Source: Chloroflexota bacterium (lineage in GTDB: Bacteria > Chloroflexota > Dehalococcoidia > Lucifugimonadales > UBA2985). Taken from it: a stretch of 47,270 nucleotides of DNA. Below the pieces are notes generated by a model. It made no database searches. It saw only the letters and a program-made list of their open reading frames with translations, and was not told the DNA's origin. Shown one piece after another: positions 6,937-28,767 of this stretch (positions within the stretch are counted from its first letter, which is position 1; each line of letters begins with the position of its first letter). The DNA is taken from contig JAPPHY010000021.1 of the NCBI GenBank assembly GCA_028877205.1, positions 35,213-82,482 on the forward strand. The letters run 5' to 3'. The position numbers and the translations under genes are program-made.

Positions 6937-9774
6937 CTATCCCAGCTGGGCGAGCAGTTCCTGCACGCGATCGCGGCGCTCGCCGAGGCGCTCCAGCCGC
7001 TCCCGCTCTCGCTCCACCACGTCCGCCGGCGCCTTGGTCGTGAAGTCGGCGTTGCCCAGTCTCTGCGAGAGCCTCTGCATGTTGTCCAGGCACTCCTTCA
7101 GCTCGCCCTCCAGCCGCGTGCGCTCTGCCGACGTGTCCACCAGGCTCTCCAGCGGTATCAGGACCGTCGCACCTGGCAGCACGGCGGACACGGTGGTGGA
7201 AGCTGCGGGTCTTGGGTCGCCCTCCTCCGGAAACTCCAGAGGCTCCGTCCGCGCCAGGCTCTCGATGACCGAAGCCTCGTCCCGGAGGGCCGCGCCGGAC
7301 TCAGAGTGCTCCACCAGGCAGGTGAGCGCGCGGTTCGGCGGTATCTTGAACTCGGCCCTGACGTTTCGGATAGCTCTCACCACGCCCATCAGAATCTCCA
7401 TCTCACGCTCCGCCTGAGCGTCCGCCGTCGACGGGTCAGCTATGGGGTAGTCGGCAATCACGATGGACTCTGCCATGCCATCCGTTTGGGGCAGGCTTTC
7501 CTTTAGGCTCTGCCAGATCTCCTCAGTCACGAAAGGCAGGAACGGGTGCATCAGGCGCATGGACTTCTCTAGCACGTGAACCAGGACGGGCAGGGGAGAC
7601 GGATCGGAGCCGGACCTTAGCCTCAGCTTGGCCATCTCGATGTACCAGTCGCAGAACTCGTTCCAGAAGAAGTCGTGGACCTCCCGCTGCGCCTCTCCGA
7701 ACAGGAAGTCCTCCATGAAGCGGTCGACCTGACCGGCCACCTGGTTGAGGCGGCCCACTATCCAGCGGTCGTGGCGGTGCAGGAGCGCAGGGTTGCGCCA
7801 CTCCGGCGCACTTTGCGTTTCGCTCAGGTTTGTCAGCACGTACCGGGCCGCGTTCCACACCTTGTTCACGAAGTTGCGGCTGGCGGCCAGCTTCCCGTCG
7901 CTGATGCGCAGGTCGTTGCCGGGCGCGTTGCCCGTGGTGAGTGTGAAGCGAAGGGCGTCGGTGCCGTAGGCCTCGATCGCCTCCAGCGGGTCGGTGACGT
8001 TGCCCCTGGTCTTGCTCATCTTGGCGCCGTGTTCGTCCCGTATGAGGCCGGACAGGTAGACCCACTTGAAGGGGACCTCGCCCGCGTTCTCTAGGCCCAT
8101 CATCACCATGCGCGCGACCCAGAAGAACAGGATGTCATAGCCCGTCTCCATGACGGTGGTTGGGTAGAAGTAGCGCATGTCGTCGGTGTCGGTGGGCCAA
8201 CCCAGGGTTGAGTGAGGCCAGAGCGCCGACGAGAACCATGTGTCGAGCACGTCCGGGTCCTGGTACAGCGCCGAGCCGCCGCACGAGGGGCAGCTTTCGG
8301 GCGGCTCCAGCGAGACGATGGGCTGGGCCGTCAGGTCGGTGAAGACGTGCAGCGCCCTGGCCTCCAGCTCGCTCCAGGCGAGGCCCTGCTCGCGGAGCGT
8401 GCGGTAGCTGCCGTCCTGCAGGTCGTCCTCCGGCGGGAATACCATCTGTATCGCGTCTTGGGAGCAGTCCAGGCAGTACCAGGCCGGTATGCGGTGGCCC
8501 CACCACAGCTGGCGGCTGATGCACCAGTCGCGTATGTTCTCCATCCAGTTGAGGTAGACCCTGGAGTAGCGGTCCGGTACGATCCTGATGCGGCCGTCCC
8601 TGACCACCTCCATTGCCGGCCTCGCAAGGTCCTCCATGCTGACGAACCACTGCCTGCTGGCCAGCGGCTCCACGACCACGCCGCACCTGCCGCAGTGGCC
8701 CACGGAGTGGGTGTACGGGTCTTGGCGGTCGAGCAGGCCGGCAGAGTCAAGGTCACGGAGTATGACCTCCCGGCAGTGGACGCGGTCCATACCCTCGTAC
8801 GGGCCGGCCTCGCGGCTCATGGAGCCGTCCAGGTTGATGGCTGTGACGATGGGCAATCCGTGACGCTGGCCCACCTCGAAGTCGACGGGATCGTGGCCGG
8901 GCGTGATCTTGAGTGCGCCCGTGCCAAACTCCGGGTCGACGGCGTCGTCGCCCACGATGGGCAGCGGCCTGTTGAGCACGGGCAGCAGGACGCGGCGGCC
9001 TACGAGGTGGCGGTAGCGGTCGTCGTCCGGGTTGACGGCCACGCCCGTGTCGCCGAGGAGGGTCTCCGGACGGGTGGTTGCCACCGTCAGGAAGCCGTCG
9101 CCGTCCTCCAGAGGATAGCGTATGTGGTAGAGGAACGACTGCTCCTCCTCGTGGTCAACCTCCAGGTCCGATAGAGCCGTTGAGCACCTTGGGCACCAGT
9201 TGATGATGCGCTCACCGCGATAGATGAGGCCCTTCTCGTAGAGGTTGGCGAACGTGGTGCGCACGGCCAGGCTGGGGCCTTCGTCCAGCGTGAAGCGGCG
9301 ACGCGTCCAGTCGCACGATGCGCCCAGGCGCTTGTGCTGCTCGTCGATTGTGTGGCCGTAACGGCGGACCCAGTCCCACACCCTCTCAAGGAATCGCTCC
9401 CGGCCAAGCTGCTGACGCGTGAGGCTGGTCTCATCCTCGGGACGTTCCGAGGCCTCCTGCGCCAGGCTGCGCTCCACCATCACCTGCGTGGCTATGCCGG
9501 CGTGGTCGGCGCCTGGCAGCCAGAGAGTGGGCTCGCCCCTCATGCGGTGCCACCTGACCATGATGTCTGCGAGCGTAGCCTGGAGTGCGTGGCCGAGGTG
9601 AAGCTCCCCCGTCACGTTCGGCGGAGGCATGATGATAACGAACGGCTCCTTGTCGGGATCGATGGTGGGCGTGAAGTAGCCGCCTTCCAACCAGGAGCCG
9701 TAGAGGCGCCGCTCGACTGCGCCCGGGTCGTAGGCCTTGGGTATGTCTCGTGCAGCCTGGTCCAACTGGGTCAT
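6937..9774 (-). CDS. valS: valyl-tRNA synthetase
   Basis: The enzyme charges tRNA-Val with valine and edits misactivated threonine. This 945-residue class Ia synthetase has PPPNVTGELHLGHAL carrying the HIGH-type signature (HLGH, residues 59-62), the AGIATQVMVER block, a CP1 editing insertion, a KMSKTRGNV signature in the C-terminal third, the anticodon-binding domain, and a C-terminal coiled coil beginning near LVDTSAERTRLEGEL, as usual for bacterial ValS. The ATG lies downstream of a strong promoter at 9827-9854. No T-box leader is seen; the leader is only about 45 bases. Confidence 0.97.
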   Translation of the reverse strand: MTQLDQAARDIPKAYDPGAVERRLYGSWLEGGYFTPTIDPDKEPFVIIMPPPNVTGELHLGHALQATLADIMVRWHRMRGEPTLWLPGADHAGIATQVMVERSLAQEASERPEDETSLTRQQLGRERFLERVWDWVRRYGHTIDEQHKRLGASCDWTRRRFTLDEGPSLAVRTTFANLYEKGLIYRGERIINWCPRCSTALSDLEVDHEEEQSFLYHIRYPLEDGDGFLTVATTRPETLLGDTGVAVNPDDDRYRHLVGRRVLLPVLNRPLPIVGDDAVDPEFGTGALKITPGHDPVDFEVGQRHGLPIVTAINLDGSMSREAGPYEGMDRVHCREVILRDLDSAGLLDRQDPYTHSVGHCGRCGVVVEPLASRQWFVSMEDLARPAMEVVRDGRIRIVPDRYSRVYLNWMENIRDWCISRQLWWGHRIPAWYCLDCSQDAIQMVFPPEDDLQDGSYRTLREQGLAWSELEARALHVFTDLTAQPIVSLEPPESCPSCGGSALYQDPDVLDTWFSSALWPHSTLGWPTDTDDMRYFYPTTVMETGYDILFFWVARMVMMGLENAGEVPFKWVYLSGLIRDEHGAKMSKTRGNVTDPLEAIEAYGTDALRFTLTTGNAPGNDLRISDGKLAASRNFVNKVWNAARYVLTNLSETQSAPEWRNPALLHRHDRWIVGRLNQVAGQVDRFMEDFLFGEAQREVHDFFWNEFCDWYIEMAKLRLRSGSDPSPLPVLVHVLEKSMRLMHPFLPFVTEEIWQSLKESLPQTDGMAESIVIADYPIADPSTADAQAEREMEILMGVVRAIRNVRAEFKIPPNRALTCLVEHSESGAALRDEASVIESLARTEPLEFPEEGDPRPAASTTVSAVLPGATVLIPLESLVDTSAERTRLEGELKECLDNMQRLSQRLGNADFTTKAPADVVERERERLERLGERRDRVQELLAQLG

Positions 9775-23189: not shown

Positions 23190-24518
23190 TTACCCCGGTG
23201 TGGAGCTCCACACGGTGAAGTTGCCGCCCGTGGTGGTCGGGCCGCCGGACACGCCGATCTCCGCGGGCCGCCGAATCTGCCTCGCGCCCGCTCGCCCCTG
23301 CACCTGCTGGATGCTGTCCGTGTGCATCCACGTGCGAGTCCGACCGCTGCCGGCGTTGCCGCCGCTAGGCGATACCGGGTTGGGCCCCTCGATGCTGATG
23401 TCCGTGGCGTACAGGTCCAGGGCCTCGCCGCGCTGGATTCCGGCAAACCGCAGCCCCTCGATGTGGAACTGGTGGAACAGCGTGTAGCCGTCGTACATGT
23501 TCTCGAAGGAGAGGTCGCTGGCGCTGATGCCGGCGCCCTCGTAGAGCTTGCGCCCCACGCTGTCAGTGGCGGCCTCGCACTCGTCGAGCGTCTGGATGCT
23601 GCTCTTCACGCGCGTCCTGTCGGATGCGTGGTTGAGGATGTAGGCGGGCTTCTGCTTCATGTCCTTCGCCCGTTCGGCGGTGGTGAACACGTACGCGCAG
23701 ACCACCTGGATGGGCAGGTCGCAATCGAAGAGGTTCGCGGGCTTGGCGACCCAGCGTGCTGACAGGTAGTCTTCGATCGACAGAGGCTCCGGTCGGTGCT
23801 GTGCCCAGAACCCCTCCGGGAAGAGGAGGCCGTTGCGCTTTTCGTTGACAACGAACGGGGCCATCATGTCGTGGTTCTTGCCGTACTTGCGGCAGTACTG
23901 GTCGAAGAGGTATGCGAACGTGCTGGCCGCGGCGCCGAAGCCCCACGGGTTGGTCCACTGCGATGCTCCGGGAGCGATGTCTAGGGCGTTGTTGCCGGCC
24001 TCGTGGCCGTAGCGGCCTGCGAGGTTGTTCCATGCCTTCAGGACAAGGCACGTGTTGGTGAGGCCGTCGCCTACGGCCTGCGCCGCCACCACGACCGCGT
24101 CGGACATGCAGGTCGGTGCGTGCATCGCGAACTGCACGTTGGTCAGCTCCGGCATGTTCTTGAGGATCCAATCCACGCTCATGGAGCTGAGGCCGTCGTT
24201 CAGGTTGTCGGTGAGCTCGAAAGTGTTTGCGAAGTCCTCCGGCACGGGATGCGTAGGATACCAGCGATCGCCGGTGGTGGCCGCGGGCACCACGACCATG
24301 CCGTCGACCTGGTCGGGCGTGATGCCGGCGTCCTCCATGGCGTTGCGGAGCGCCATGACTGTCCACGTGCCTATGCTGGACTCCACGAGCCCGTCCCAGC
24401 GCCTGGCAGTGGGGGAGTGGCCGATGCCTACGGCGGCCACCTTGCCCTTGTGCTCCCACACGCCTAGCCCCTCTCGCGAGCGGTACATCGAAGCGGGCGG
24501 AGTTTGAACTGTTACCAT
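23190..24518 (-). CDS. thiolase-like protein (SCP2/lipid-transfer type acetyl-CoA acetyltransferase homologue)
   Basis: Thiolase-fold proteins of this class make or break C-C bonds in acyl-CoA chains; steroid side-chain thiolases and aldolases work together with a DUF35 partner. In this 442-residue protein the N-half has AVGIGHSPTARRWDG and Cys137 in APTCMSDAVVVAAQAVGDG at the nucleophile region. The C-half ends with NPVSPSGGNAGSGR, the NPSGG-like active-site loop, and a long tail beyond it. YDGYTLFHQFHIEGL is the usual SCP-x region. The ATG has a strong AAGGAGGG site. It lies 45 bases after the DUF35 gene, so the two probably form one enzyme. The substrate is unknown. Confidence 0.85.
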   Translation of the reverse strand: MVTVQTPPASMYRSREGLGVWEHKGKVAAVGIGHSPTARRWDGLVESSIGTWTVMALRNAMEDAGITPDQVDGMVVVPAATTGDRWYPTHPVPEDFANTFELTDNLNDGLSSMSVDWILKNMPELTNVQFAMHAPTCMSDAVVVAAQAVGDGLTNTCLVLKAWNNLAGRYGHEAGNNALDIAPGASQWTNPWGFGAAASTFAYLFDQYCRKYGKNHDMMAPFVVNEKRNGLLFPEGFWAQHRPEPLSIEDYLSARWVAKPANLFDCDLPIQVVCAYVFTTAERAKDMKQKPAYILNHASDRTRVKSSIQTLDECEAATDSVGRKLYEGAGISASDLSFENMYDGYTLFHQFHIEGLRFAGIQRGEALDLYATDISIEGPNPVSPSGGNAGSGRTRTWMHTDSIQQVQGRAGARQIRRPAEIGVSGGPTTTGGNFTVWSSTPG

Positions 24519-27743: not shown

Positions 27744-27757
27744 GCATGCTCTGATGC

Positions 27758-27785
27758 TTGACAGCATCAATCGGTAGTGTAATAT
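27758..27785 (+). promoter_or_regulatory. near-consensus promoter of the DUF3800 leader and gene
   Basis: TTGACA (27758-27763) is a perfect -35 and TAATAT (27780-27785) lies 16 bases on. Transcription would start near 27792, exactly where a long hairpin begins. Confidence 0.7.
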
Positions 27786-27792
27786 AAGGATA

Positions 27793-27859
27793 GCGTCTAG
27801 GAGGAGTCGCCAAGCGTCTCTGATCGGGGCAGATGCCCGGAGCCTAGTCGCTTTTCTTT
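27793..27859 (+). ncRNA. structured 5' leader of the DUF3800 gene, candidate cis-regulatory or small RNA
   Basis: The outer helix pairs 27793-27801 with 27843-27851 (eight pairs, one T-T mismatch). The inner helix pairs GCGTCT (27814-27819) with AGATGC (27831-27836), with CC/GG (27810-27811, 27839-27840) between. The helix is followed by TTTTCTTTT (27852-27860), so the element also looks like an intrinsic terminator. A promoter is placed to start transcription at its first base. Several candidate RNA motifs named DUF3800-I and onward have been reported upstream of DUF3800 genes by comparative genomics; whether this is one of them is not shown. Confidence 0.5.
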
Positions 27860-27873
27860 TGTGAGGATTTCCC

Positions 27874-28767
27874 ATGTACCTTTGCTGTATTGATGAATCA
27901 GGCACTTCAAGCGTTCCTGGGAATACATCCCACTACGTCCTGGCTGGGCTTTCCATCCCTGACCGACACTGGAAACAGGCCCATGAGCAGTTGGAGAGCA
28001 TTAAAGCTCGATATGGCCTGGAGAATGCTGAAATCCACGTCGCCTGGATGATGAGGAAGTACATTGAGCAGCAGTCGATTCCCGGGTTCTCATCCATGCC
28101 TGCCGAGAGGCGACGTACGGAAGTCCTAAGGAGACGAAATGCAGAACTGCTGCGATTGCAGAAAACCAATCGTCAGCAATACAAGCAAACTCGAAAGAAC
28201 TACCAAAAGACTGAAGCCTACGTCCACCTAACGTGGGAAGAACGGCGTCAAGCTGTAACGGACATTGCGGAGCGCATATCGGGATGGGGTGACATCCGGC
28301 TCTTCGCAGAATGCATAGACAAGCTCCACTTTGACCCCGTTTTGGCCGGAAGGACGGTTCACGAGCAGGCATTCGAACAGGTTGTCACGCGTTTTGAGCA
28401 TTTCCTGAGAAACCGTCAGTCTGACTACGGGCTTCTCATCCATGACAACAATCCGACAGTGGCCGAGAGACATACTGAACTGATGAAGACTTTTCTGCGG
28501 GGCGGCACGCTGTGGACACAAATAAACCACGTCATAGAAACCCCGATGTTCGTGGACAGTCAATTGACGGGCATGGTCCAGATGGCGGACCTGTGTGCCT
28601 ATGCGATTCGGCGATACCTTGAGAACTCGGAGGCAAGGCTCTTTGAACTGATCTTTCAAAGGGCTGACAGGGTTGGAGGACTTGCAGTAGGAGTAAGGCA
28701 CTTTACAAGGCAAAGCTGCCCCTGCATGATTTGTGCCTCCCACACTGCTCCCGGCCAGATAAACTAG
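27874..28767 (+). CDS. DUF3800 domain protein
   Basis: DUF3800 proteins are RNase H-like-fold proteins of unknown activity, often found on mobile or defence-associated DNA. The 297-residue protein begins MYLCCIDESG, with the acidic pair of the DESG motif at residues 7-8. It has a basic helical middle (RRRNAELLRLQKTNRQQYKQTRKNY) and the C-terminal block FVDSQLTGMVQMADLCAYAI with the last acidic residue. Asp7, Asp in FVDS and Asp in MADLC could form a metal site; this is inference. The ATG follows GTGAGG. Base composition is lower in GC than neighbours, which points to transfer. Confidence 0.85.
   Translation: MYLCCIDESGTSSVPGNTSHYVLAGLSIPDRHWKQAHEQLESIKARYGLENAEIHVAWMMRKYIEQQSIPGFSSMPAERRRTEVLRRRNAELLRLQKTNRQQYKQTRKNYQKTEAYVHLTWEERRQAVTDIAERISGWGDIRLFAECIDKLHFDPVLAGRTVHEQAFEQVVTRFEHFLRNRQSDYGLLIHDNNPTVAERHTELMKTFLRGGTLWTQINHVIETPMFVDSQLTGMVQMADLCAYAIRRYLENSEARLFELIFQRADRVGGLAVGVRHFTRQSCPCMICASHTAPGQIN

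Follow-up and report, generated by a model that had tools for sequence, protein, structure and literature searches.

Several orphan RNA motifs, their function unexplained since their discovery, accompany DUF3800 genes, which are also linked to rare CRISPR loci. The gene of this family considered here, found in the genome of a Chloroflexota bacterium behind a promoter and a structured leader, raises the question of whether such a leader is merely a part of the mRNA or gives rise to an RNA that acts on the encoded protein. The locus lies in a stretch of 47,270 nucleotides (contig JAPPHY010000021.1, positions 35,213 to 82,482), called the window below. A sequence-only reading of the window had placed there a TTGACA-N16-TAATAT promoter, an RNA, a T-tract and the gene, and its coordinates for these parts hold to the base. 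The features of the locus, in window coordinates, are the following.

27758..27763, + strand: -35 box TTGACA, found by sequence scan; its place relative to the RNA is kept in homologous leaders
27780..27785, + strand: -10 box TAATAT, with an N16 spacer from the -35 box and 7 nt to the first RNA base
27793..27851, + strand: conserved three-way-junction RNA of 59 nt (covariance model and alignment of 30 loci)
27793..27801, + strand: 5' strand of P1, GCGUCUAGG, pairing with 27843-27851, with a U.U mismatch at the fourth position
27804..27820, + strand: P2 hairpin, GAGUCGC-CAA-GCGUCUC (fold and alignment)
27825..27840, + strand: P3 hairpin, variable in sequence, with one G.G mispair in the window copy
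27843..27851, + strand: 3' strand of P1, CCUAGUCGC (fold and alignment)
27852..27860, + strand: T-tract TTTTCTTTT, directly 3' of P1, resembling an intrinsic terminator
27863..27867, + strand: likely ribosome binding site GAGGA, read from the sequence, past the T-tract and ahead of the start codon
27874..28767, + strand: intact DUF3800 gene of 297 aa, ATG at 27874 (open reading frame and PF12686 match)

The 7-nt gap between the end of the -10 box and the RNA leads us to expect the transcription start at 27793 or adjoining it. Between positions 24000 and 32000 there are four promoter-like sites (1.1 expected from shuffles), and only the one at 27758 has an exact -35 box. A small RNA ending at the T-tract is expected to be about 68 nt long. 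The T-tract at 27852-27860 was not listed by the program's terminator scan, because that scan permits loops of 3-8 only. The -35 box is also the centre of a perfect 7-bp dyad, TGATGCT-TGAC-AGCATCA (27752-27769), a possible operator, which, judged by eye, the homologous promoters do not as a rule share.

The predicted folding energy of the RNA at 27793-27851 is -32.1 kcal/mol, with a single-sequence z-score of -1.7, which is unremarkable, so that folding energy alone is unconvincing and comparison is needed to decide. We built a covariance model, R1, on 12 leaders and applied it to 30 loci, all of which have the same layout. Instead of the one long hairpin proposed earlier, the comparison indicates a three-way junction of the stems P1, P2 and P3. 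In the alignment of the 30 loci, which was fitted to the model and is thereby biased towards it, 96.2% of cells are paired and two-sided changes occur at 11 of the 20 pairs, in 53 cells as compared to 11.3 in shuffles. The covariation score is 0.303 vs. 0.131 in shuffled alignments, none of 500 shuffles reached it, and the signal collapses as soon as the partner column is shifted by one to three positions. The effect was already visible in the initial MAFFT alignment made before the model (18 cells vs. 5.7). Covariation among homologous leaders, the check that had been set beforehand for a structured leader of the DUF3800-associated kind, was thus found. The window RNA shares with the described DUF3800-associated RNA motifs a conserved, covarying structure upstream of a DUF3800 gene.

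The family consensus, GCGUCURGG-NN-GAGUCGC-NNN-GCGUCUC-P3-CCYAGUCGC, begins about 6 nt past the -10 box, and T residues come after it. P1 and P2 hardly vary, and the fourth base pair of each is a conserved mismatch, in most cases U.U, while the sequence of P3 is free to vary with compensatory changes, covariation being seen at all six of its pairs. The T-tract is present in 24 of the 30 leaders and absent from the Leptospira and Brevundimonas copies and from two phage copies; this agrees with the earlier proposal of a terminator-like end giving an RNA of about 68 nt with some read-through. The RNA is also pseudo-symmetric: the loop end of P2 has the sequence GCGUCU/AGUCGC of the P1 outer end, together with the U.U mismatch. 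At one locus (L037), both mismatches are A.A, and at another (L025), both end triplets GCG/CGC are replaced by GAG/CUC. The P1 and P2 ends of the same RNA agree with each other better than shuffled ends do (p=0.0015; 0.023 without L025; 0.22 without both L025 and L037). A concerted change of P1 and P2, the signal of which is carried by these two loci, is therefore suggestive only, as is the idea that the pseudo-symmetry would fit a protein dimer.

A search with the Rfam DUF3800 models had been named as a check on this RNA. The covariance search of the window against Rfam 15 gave no family for it at the gathering threshold, a search with 181 bases containing it gave none at E<=10, and 13 related loci did not match any Rfam family, including RF02915 (DUF3800-VI). 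As a positive control, RF02915 matched the loci L005, L006 (twice), L007 and L021, in related Chloroflexota and with other DUF3800 subfamilies. With model R1, DUF3800-VI copies scored weakly, at 18.0 and 14.3 bits (E 0.005 and 0.05 in 23 kb searched with filters off), which points to a distant likeness. Both RNAs share a promoter, a three-way junction whose P2 and P3 are short, and a pyrimidine tract (CCTTTT in DUF3800-VI) ahead of the ATG of a DUF3800 gene. The window RNA differs from DUF3800-VI in its consensus, in the U.U mismatches of P1 and P2, in a longer P1 and in the protein subfamily that it accompanies. The lack of an Rfam match together with this weak likeness makes it a variant of its own among the DUF3800-associated RNAs, set apart from the Rfam families.

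Other DUF3800 genes provided several side observations. At L006 (2259-2395), two tandem DUF3800-VI RNAs precede one DUF3800 gene, which resembles the antitoxin repeats of type III systems. The leaders of three other DUF3800 genes (L008, L009, and L022) have a same-looking layout of promoter and three-way junction with different sequences and no Rfam match at the gathering threshold; possibly, they are further unlisted variants. Past the 3' ends of three distant DUF3800 genes (L011, L012, and L013), the opposite strand carries a promoter-like sequence and a conserved stretch with TAGGGAATTGGTGYGTTGCYTRATTCGCAAC, which has no Rfam match at the gathering threshold and looks like another structured RNA.

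The window protein belongs to the DUF3800 family (PF12686, E=1.1e-18, 68.8 bits vs. the curated cut-off of 21). It retains the residues that are invariant in its subfamily, namely, D7 E8 S9, E164, D191 N192 N193, D228, Q236, and D239, as well as R275 H276, C282, C284, and C287 in the C-terminal part. DUF3800 proteins are predicted to be nucleases of the RNase H fold in which the active site is rearranged (PMC10910872). The window protein has a weak match to the PADLOC candidate defence family PDC-M04 (E=8e-4). The sole, weak match in the PDB profile search, 8cqn (E=0.002), was judged spurious because the active-site motifs fail to align. A second DUF3800 gene in the same genome (L137, C15:110149-110772) represents an unrelated subfamily, and a leader of the window kind was looked for at that gene and not found.

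The nearest homologues of the window protein (42-76% identity) are encoded by Caldilineaceae, other Chloroflexota, Acidiferrobacterales, Acetobacteraceae, Brevundimonas, Spirochaetes, Bacteroidetes, Verrucomicrobia, and Bipolaricaulota, the taxonomy being that of record titles, several of which denote metagenome-assembled genomes with short contigs. The RNA precedes homologous genes in six phyla, and nearly all intact or recognisable copies of the gene carry the consensus leader. The pseudogene at L036, the 5' end of which is cut off, is without a leader, and the leader of L025 is strongly diverged, yet foldable in a similar way. A single frameshift in each of L028 and L032 may be an assembly error.

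Several genomes have retained the RNA and not an intact gene. In G329, a genome of 96% completeness, the promoter (TTGACA...TAATAT), the RNA and the T-tract are followed by a gene encoding a CxxCxxCC domain, and a search directed at close relatives of the window protein, rather than at all DUF3800 proteins, found no homologue at E<=10. At five loci (L035, L041, L043, L056, and L060) the gene has been lost, truncated or inactivated and the RNA remains. The remnants range from the codons for residues 257-290 immediately after the RNA (G460) to a gene recognisable over about its first 77 residues only (G203) or over about the first 30 (L041 and L043, on virus-classed contigs), and to a copy with stops, a frameshift and substitutions at invariant positions (L035, genome G043). 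In G965 (L132), the gene behind the RNA also encodes a DUF3800 protein (PF12686, E=7e-17), though one of another subfamily, with no useful similarity to that of the window; this is possibly a gene swap or a chance neighbour of a gene-less RNA. The RNAs of gene-less loci score as well as those of intact ones (67.3 vs. 68.2 bits), and among the loci that we read there was no intact gene of the window subfamily without the RNA. A search based on the RNA favours finds of gene-less RNAs, while the search based on the protein failed to find the opposite case. In addition, some of the gene losses may be recent, in which case the intact RNA at those loci is not necessarily under selection. The search bias and recent deletion weaken this asymmetry and do not abolish it.

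Phage contigs also carry the RNA, in complete or reduced form. A 25-kb contig (L053) has the RNA alone, without the gene and the T-tract, together with a terminase-like gene (matching in parts only) and an RlaP-like RNA-repair gene. The same contig contains, at 8942-9008, a borderline match to the type II hammerhead ribozyme (38.0 bits vs. the cut-off of 37). In a 62-kb contig with genes of the large and small terminase subunits (L049), the RNA consists of P1 and P2 without P3, and its U.U mismatches are retained (fold z -3.9). A 20.7-kb contig (L138), which encodes a portal protein, a maturation protease/head protein and a major tail protein, has a tandem of two P2 hairpins (fold z -5.2) in its tail-gene operon; they lie, in the same sense, in the gap that separates the major tail protein gene from the one after it. 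Reversed-pattern controls in the same collection gave 1 vs. 15 and 0 vs. 1 matches. L048/L051 is also counted as gene-less RNA; the proteins scanned there gave no phage match, which leaves it a putative phage copy. L045 and L139 were judged to be chance matches, the latter by its repetitive coding context, and the weak match L062 was omitted. A blastn search of phage, plasmid and E. coli collections for a similar RNA found none.

The association of the RNA with the gene across distant phyla, and its presence in phages and in a bacterial genome that lack the gene, suggest that the RNA probably holds the DUF3800 protein in check. The gene-less and phage copies argue for action of the RNA in trans and make it considerably more likely. 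Direct binding of the RNA to the protein, be it as an inhibitor or as a cofactor, can be regarded as quite likely. Our best model, to which we give an even chance, is that the RNA is a type III-like antitoxin or inhibitor of the DUF3800 protein that acts in trans. According to this model, one promoter would yield mostly the three-way-junction RNA of about 68 nt, ending at its own terminator, and occasional read-through would provide the mRNA of the RNase H-fold nuclease. The RNA would bind the protein in trans and keep the nuclease inactive until the supply of RNA fails, e.g., when a phage shuts down transcription, as in type III and AbiF-RCd22 systems. Phages with the RNA, or with the P2 hairpin alone, would use it as a decoy. 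What the comparisons show is the RNA with its structure, its linkage to the gene, and the copies without the gene and in phages, from which we infer the start and end of transcription, the binding, the inhibition, the toxicity and the role in defence that the model assigns to this locus.

In type III toxin-antitoxin loci, a promoter, an RNA, a Rho-independent terminator and an effector gene follow one another (PMC5086642). The window locus has the same order of parts as these systems (ToxIN, CptIN, and TenpIN; PMC5086642), the T-tract of the 24 leaders taking the place of the terminator. The tandem antitoxin repeats typical of type III are replaced by a single junction in each bacterial locus, and tandem copies occur only in the DUF3800-VI cousin at L006 and in phage contig L138. 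The protein is also a DUF3800 protein and not an endoribonuclease of the ToxN fold, with no ToxN-like match in Pfam or PADLOC. Phage RNA mimics of ToxI (pseudo-ToxI) are known to defeat ToxIN (PMC3475682), and the RNA copies in phages described here, one of them in tandem, resemble them. The RNA of AbiF-RCd22 (abiF RNA, RF03085) also began as an orphan Rfam motif and later proved to neutralise its effector in cis and in trans (PMC12373285). Like the window RNA, it is a structured RNA with a promoter and a terminator just upstream of the effector gene; it differs in its unrelated protein (Abi_2/AbiF) and RNA fold and in having two motifs per RNA instead of one junction. AvcID (PMC10511110) likewise has an RNA inhibitor upstream of an effector gene and no classical ToxN toxin, while its effector is a deaminase and its RNA is longer (minimum about 171 bases) and without a predicted terminator. 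The inhibitor model is supported by the match of the layout to type III systems and AbiF-RCd22, by the covariation, by the parallel divergence of RNA and protein, and by the gene-less and phage copies; it is weakened by the single RNA copy in place of a tandem array and by the missing T-tract in some copies.

Inhibition in trans is favoured over two other readings. The RNA could be a purely cis-acting leader, i.e., an attenuator or an autoregulatory site where the DUF3800 protein itself, or a ligand, would bind the leader as it is transcribed and thereby set termination or translation of the gene's own mRNA, with no function off the mRNA. Its location in the 5' leader in nearly all bacterial copies, with the T-tract at P1, agrees with this, and so does the listing of its cousin DUF3800-VI in Rfam as Cis-reg. 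We find it unlikely, however, given the gene-less copy of G329 with its promoter and T-tract, the gene-less copies on phage contigs, including the P2 tandem in the tail operon, and the copies that lack a T-tract. No better placed is the view that the DUF3800 nuclease functions solely as a ribonucleoprotein, which the RNA activates or aims, and that the phage copies are its competitors, in the manner of RNA anti-CRISPRs. The tight pairing and conservation of RNA and protein, as well as the pseudo-symmetry of the RNA, which suggests a defined ribonucleoprotein, are in line with such a cofactor, and some CRISPR loci of types V-A2 and VI-F are accompanied by DUF3800 proteins (PMC10910872, PMC12669027). 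What makes it improbable is that the RNA has no variable guide-like segment, its variation being confined to P3, which one phage copy lacks altogether, and to the joining bases; moreover, this view accounts less easily for a bacterial genome in which the RNA has a promoter and no gene.

The RNA and the gene appear to travel together. The earlier suggestion of mobility, made from the lower GC content, is borne out by the GC of the gene (0.51-0.53 vs. 0.61-0.68 in most flanking 500-bp windows) and by the homologues in six phyla, on a Leptospira weilii plasmid (found via its protein) and on prophage or phage contigs; the contig of the Brevundimonas homologue is also classed as viral in IMG/VR. 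Matches are infrequent, occurring in 8 of 400 Chloroflexota genomes, in 2 of 398 genomes of the phylum of the Acidiferrobacterales match and in 4 of 296 of that of the Spirochaetes match, a known carrier being counted each time. There is usually one copy per genome; G546 has two RNA-gene pairs, the second of which is diverged in RNA and protein alike. RNA and protein distances are correlated (Mantel rho 0.70, p 4e-4), and shared sequence was found in the leader in 53 of 105 pairs, and upstream of the promoter or downstream of the stop codon in 0 of 105 each. The patchy spread, this correlation and the lack of shared sequence outside the region from promoter to stop indicate that the RNA and the gene form a mobile unit. 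A comparison with empty sites in relatives found the flanking genes only in distant genomes and, in the genomes read, never side by side. That the hairpins are a DNA element, such as a transposon end or a recombination site, with DUF3800 as its enzyme, as the mobile gene, the RNase H-like fold, the hairpins with conserved mismatches and the truncated copies that keep the 5' end might suggest, is highly improbable and largely refuted by the absence of conserved flanks, the fixed distance to the -10 box, the T-tract behind and the usual single copy per genome.

A more specific form of the inhibitor model, which we put forward tentatively and hold to have somewhat less than an even chance, is that the locus is an RNA-neutralised defence module in which the pseudo-symmetric RNA holds the RNase H-fold DUF3800 effector as a dimer, and that phages answer with stripped-down RNA decoys, made up of P1 and P2 only or of tandem P2 hairpins. 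The likely recognition element, to judge from the genomes that retain the RNA without the gene and from the stripped-down phage RNAs, is P2 with its U.U mismatch. The variant supplies natural experiments, in the form of genomes with the RNA minus the gene and phages with reduced forms of the RNA. If the model is true, all DUF3800-associated RNAs would be RNA antitoxins.
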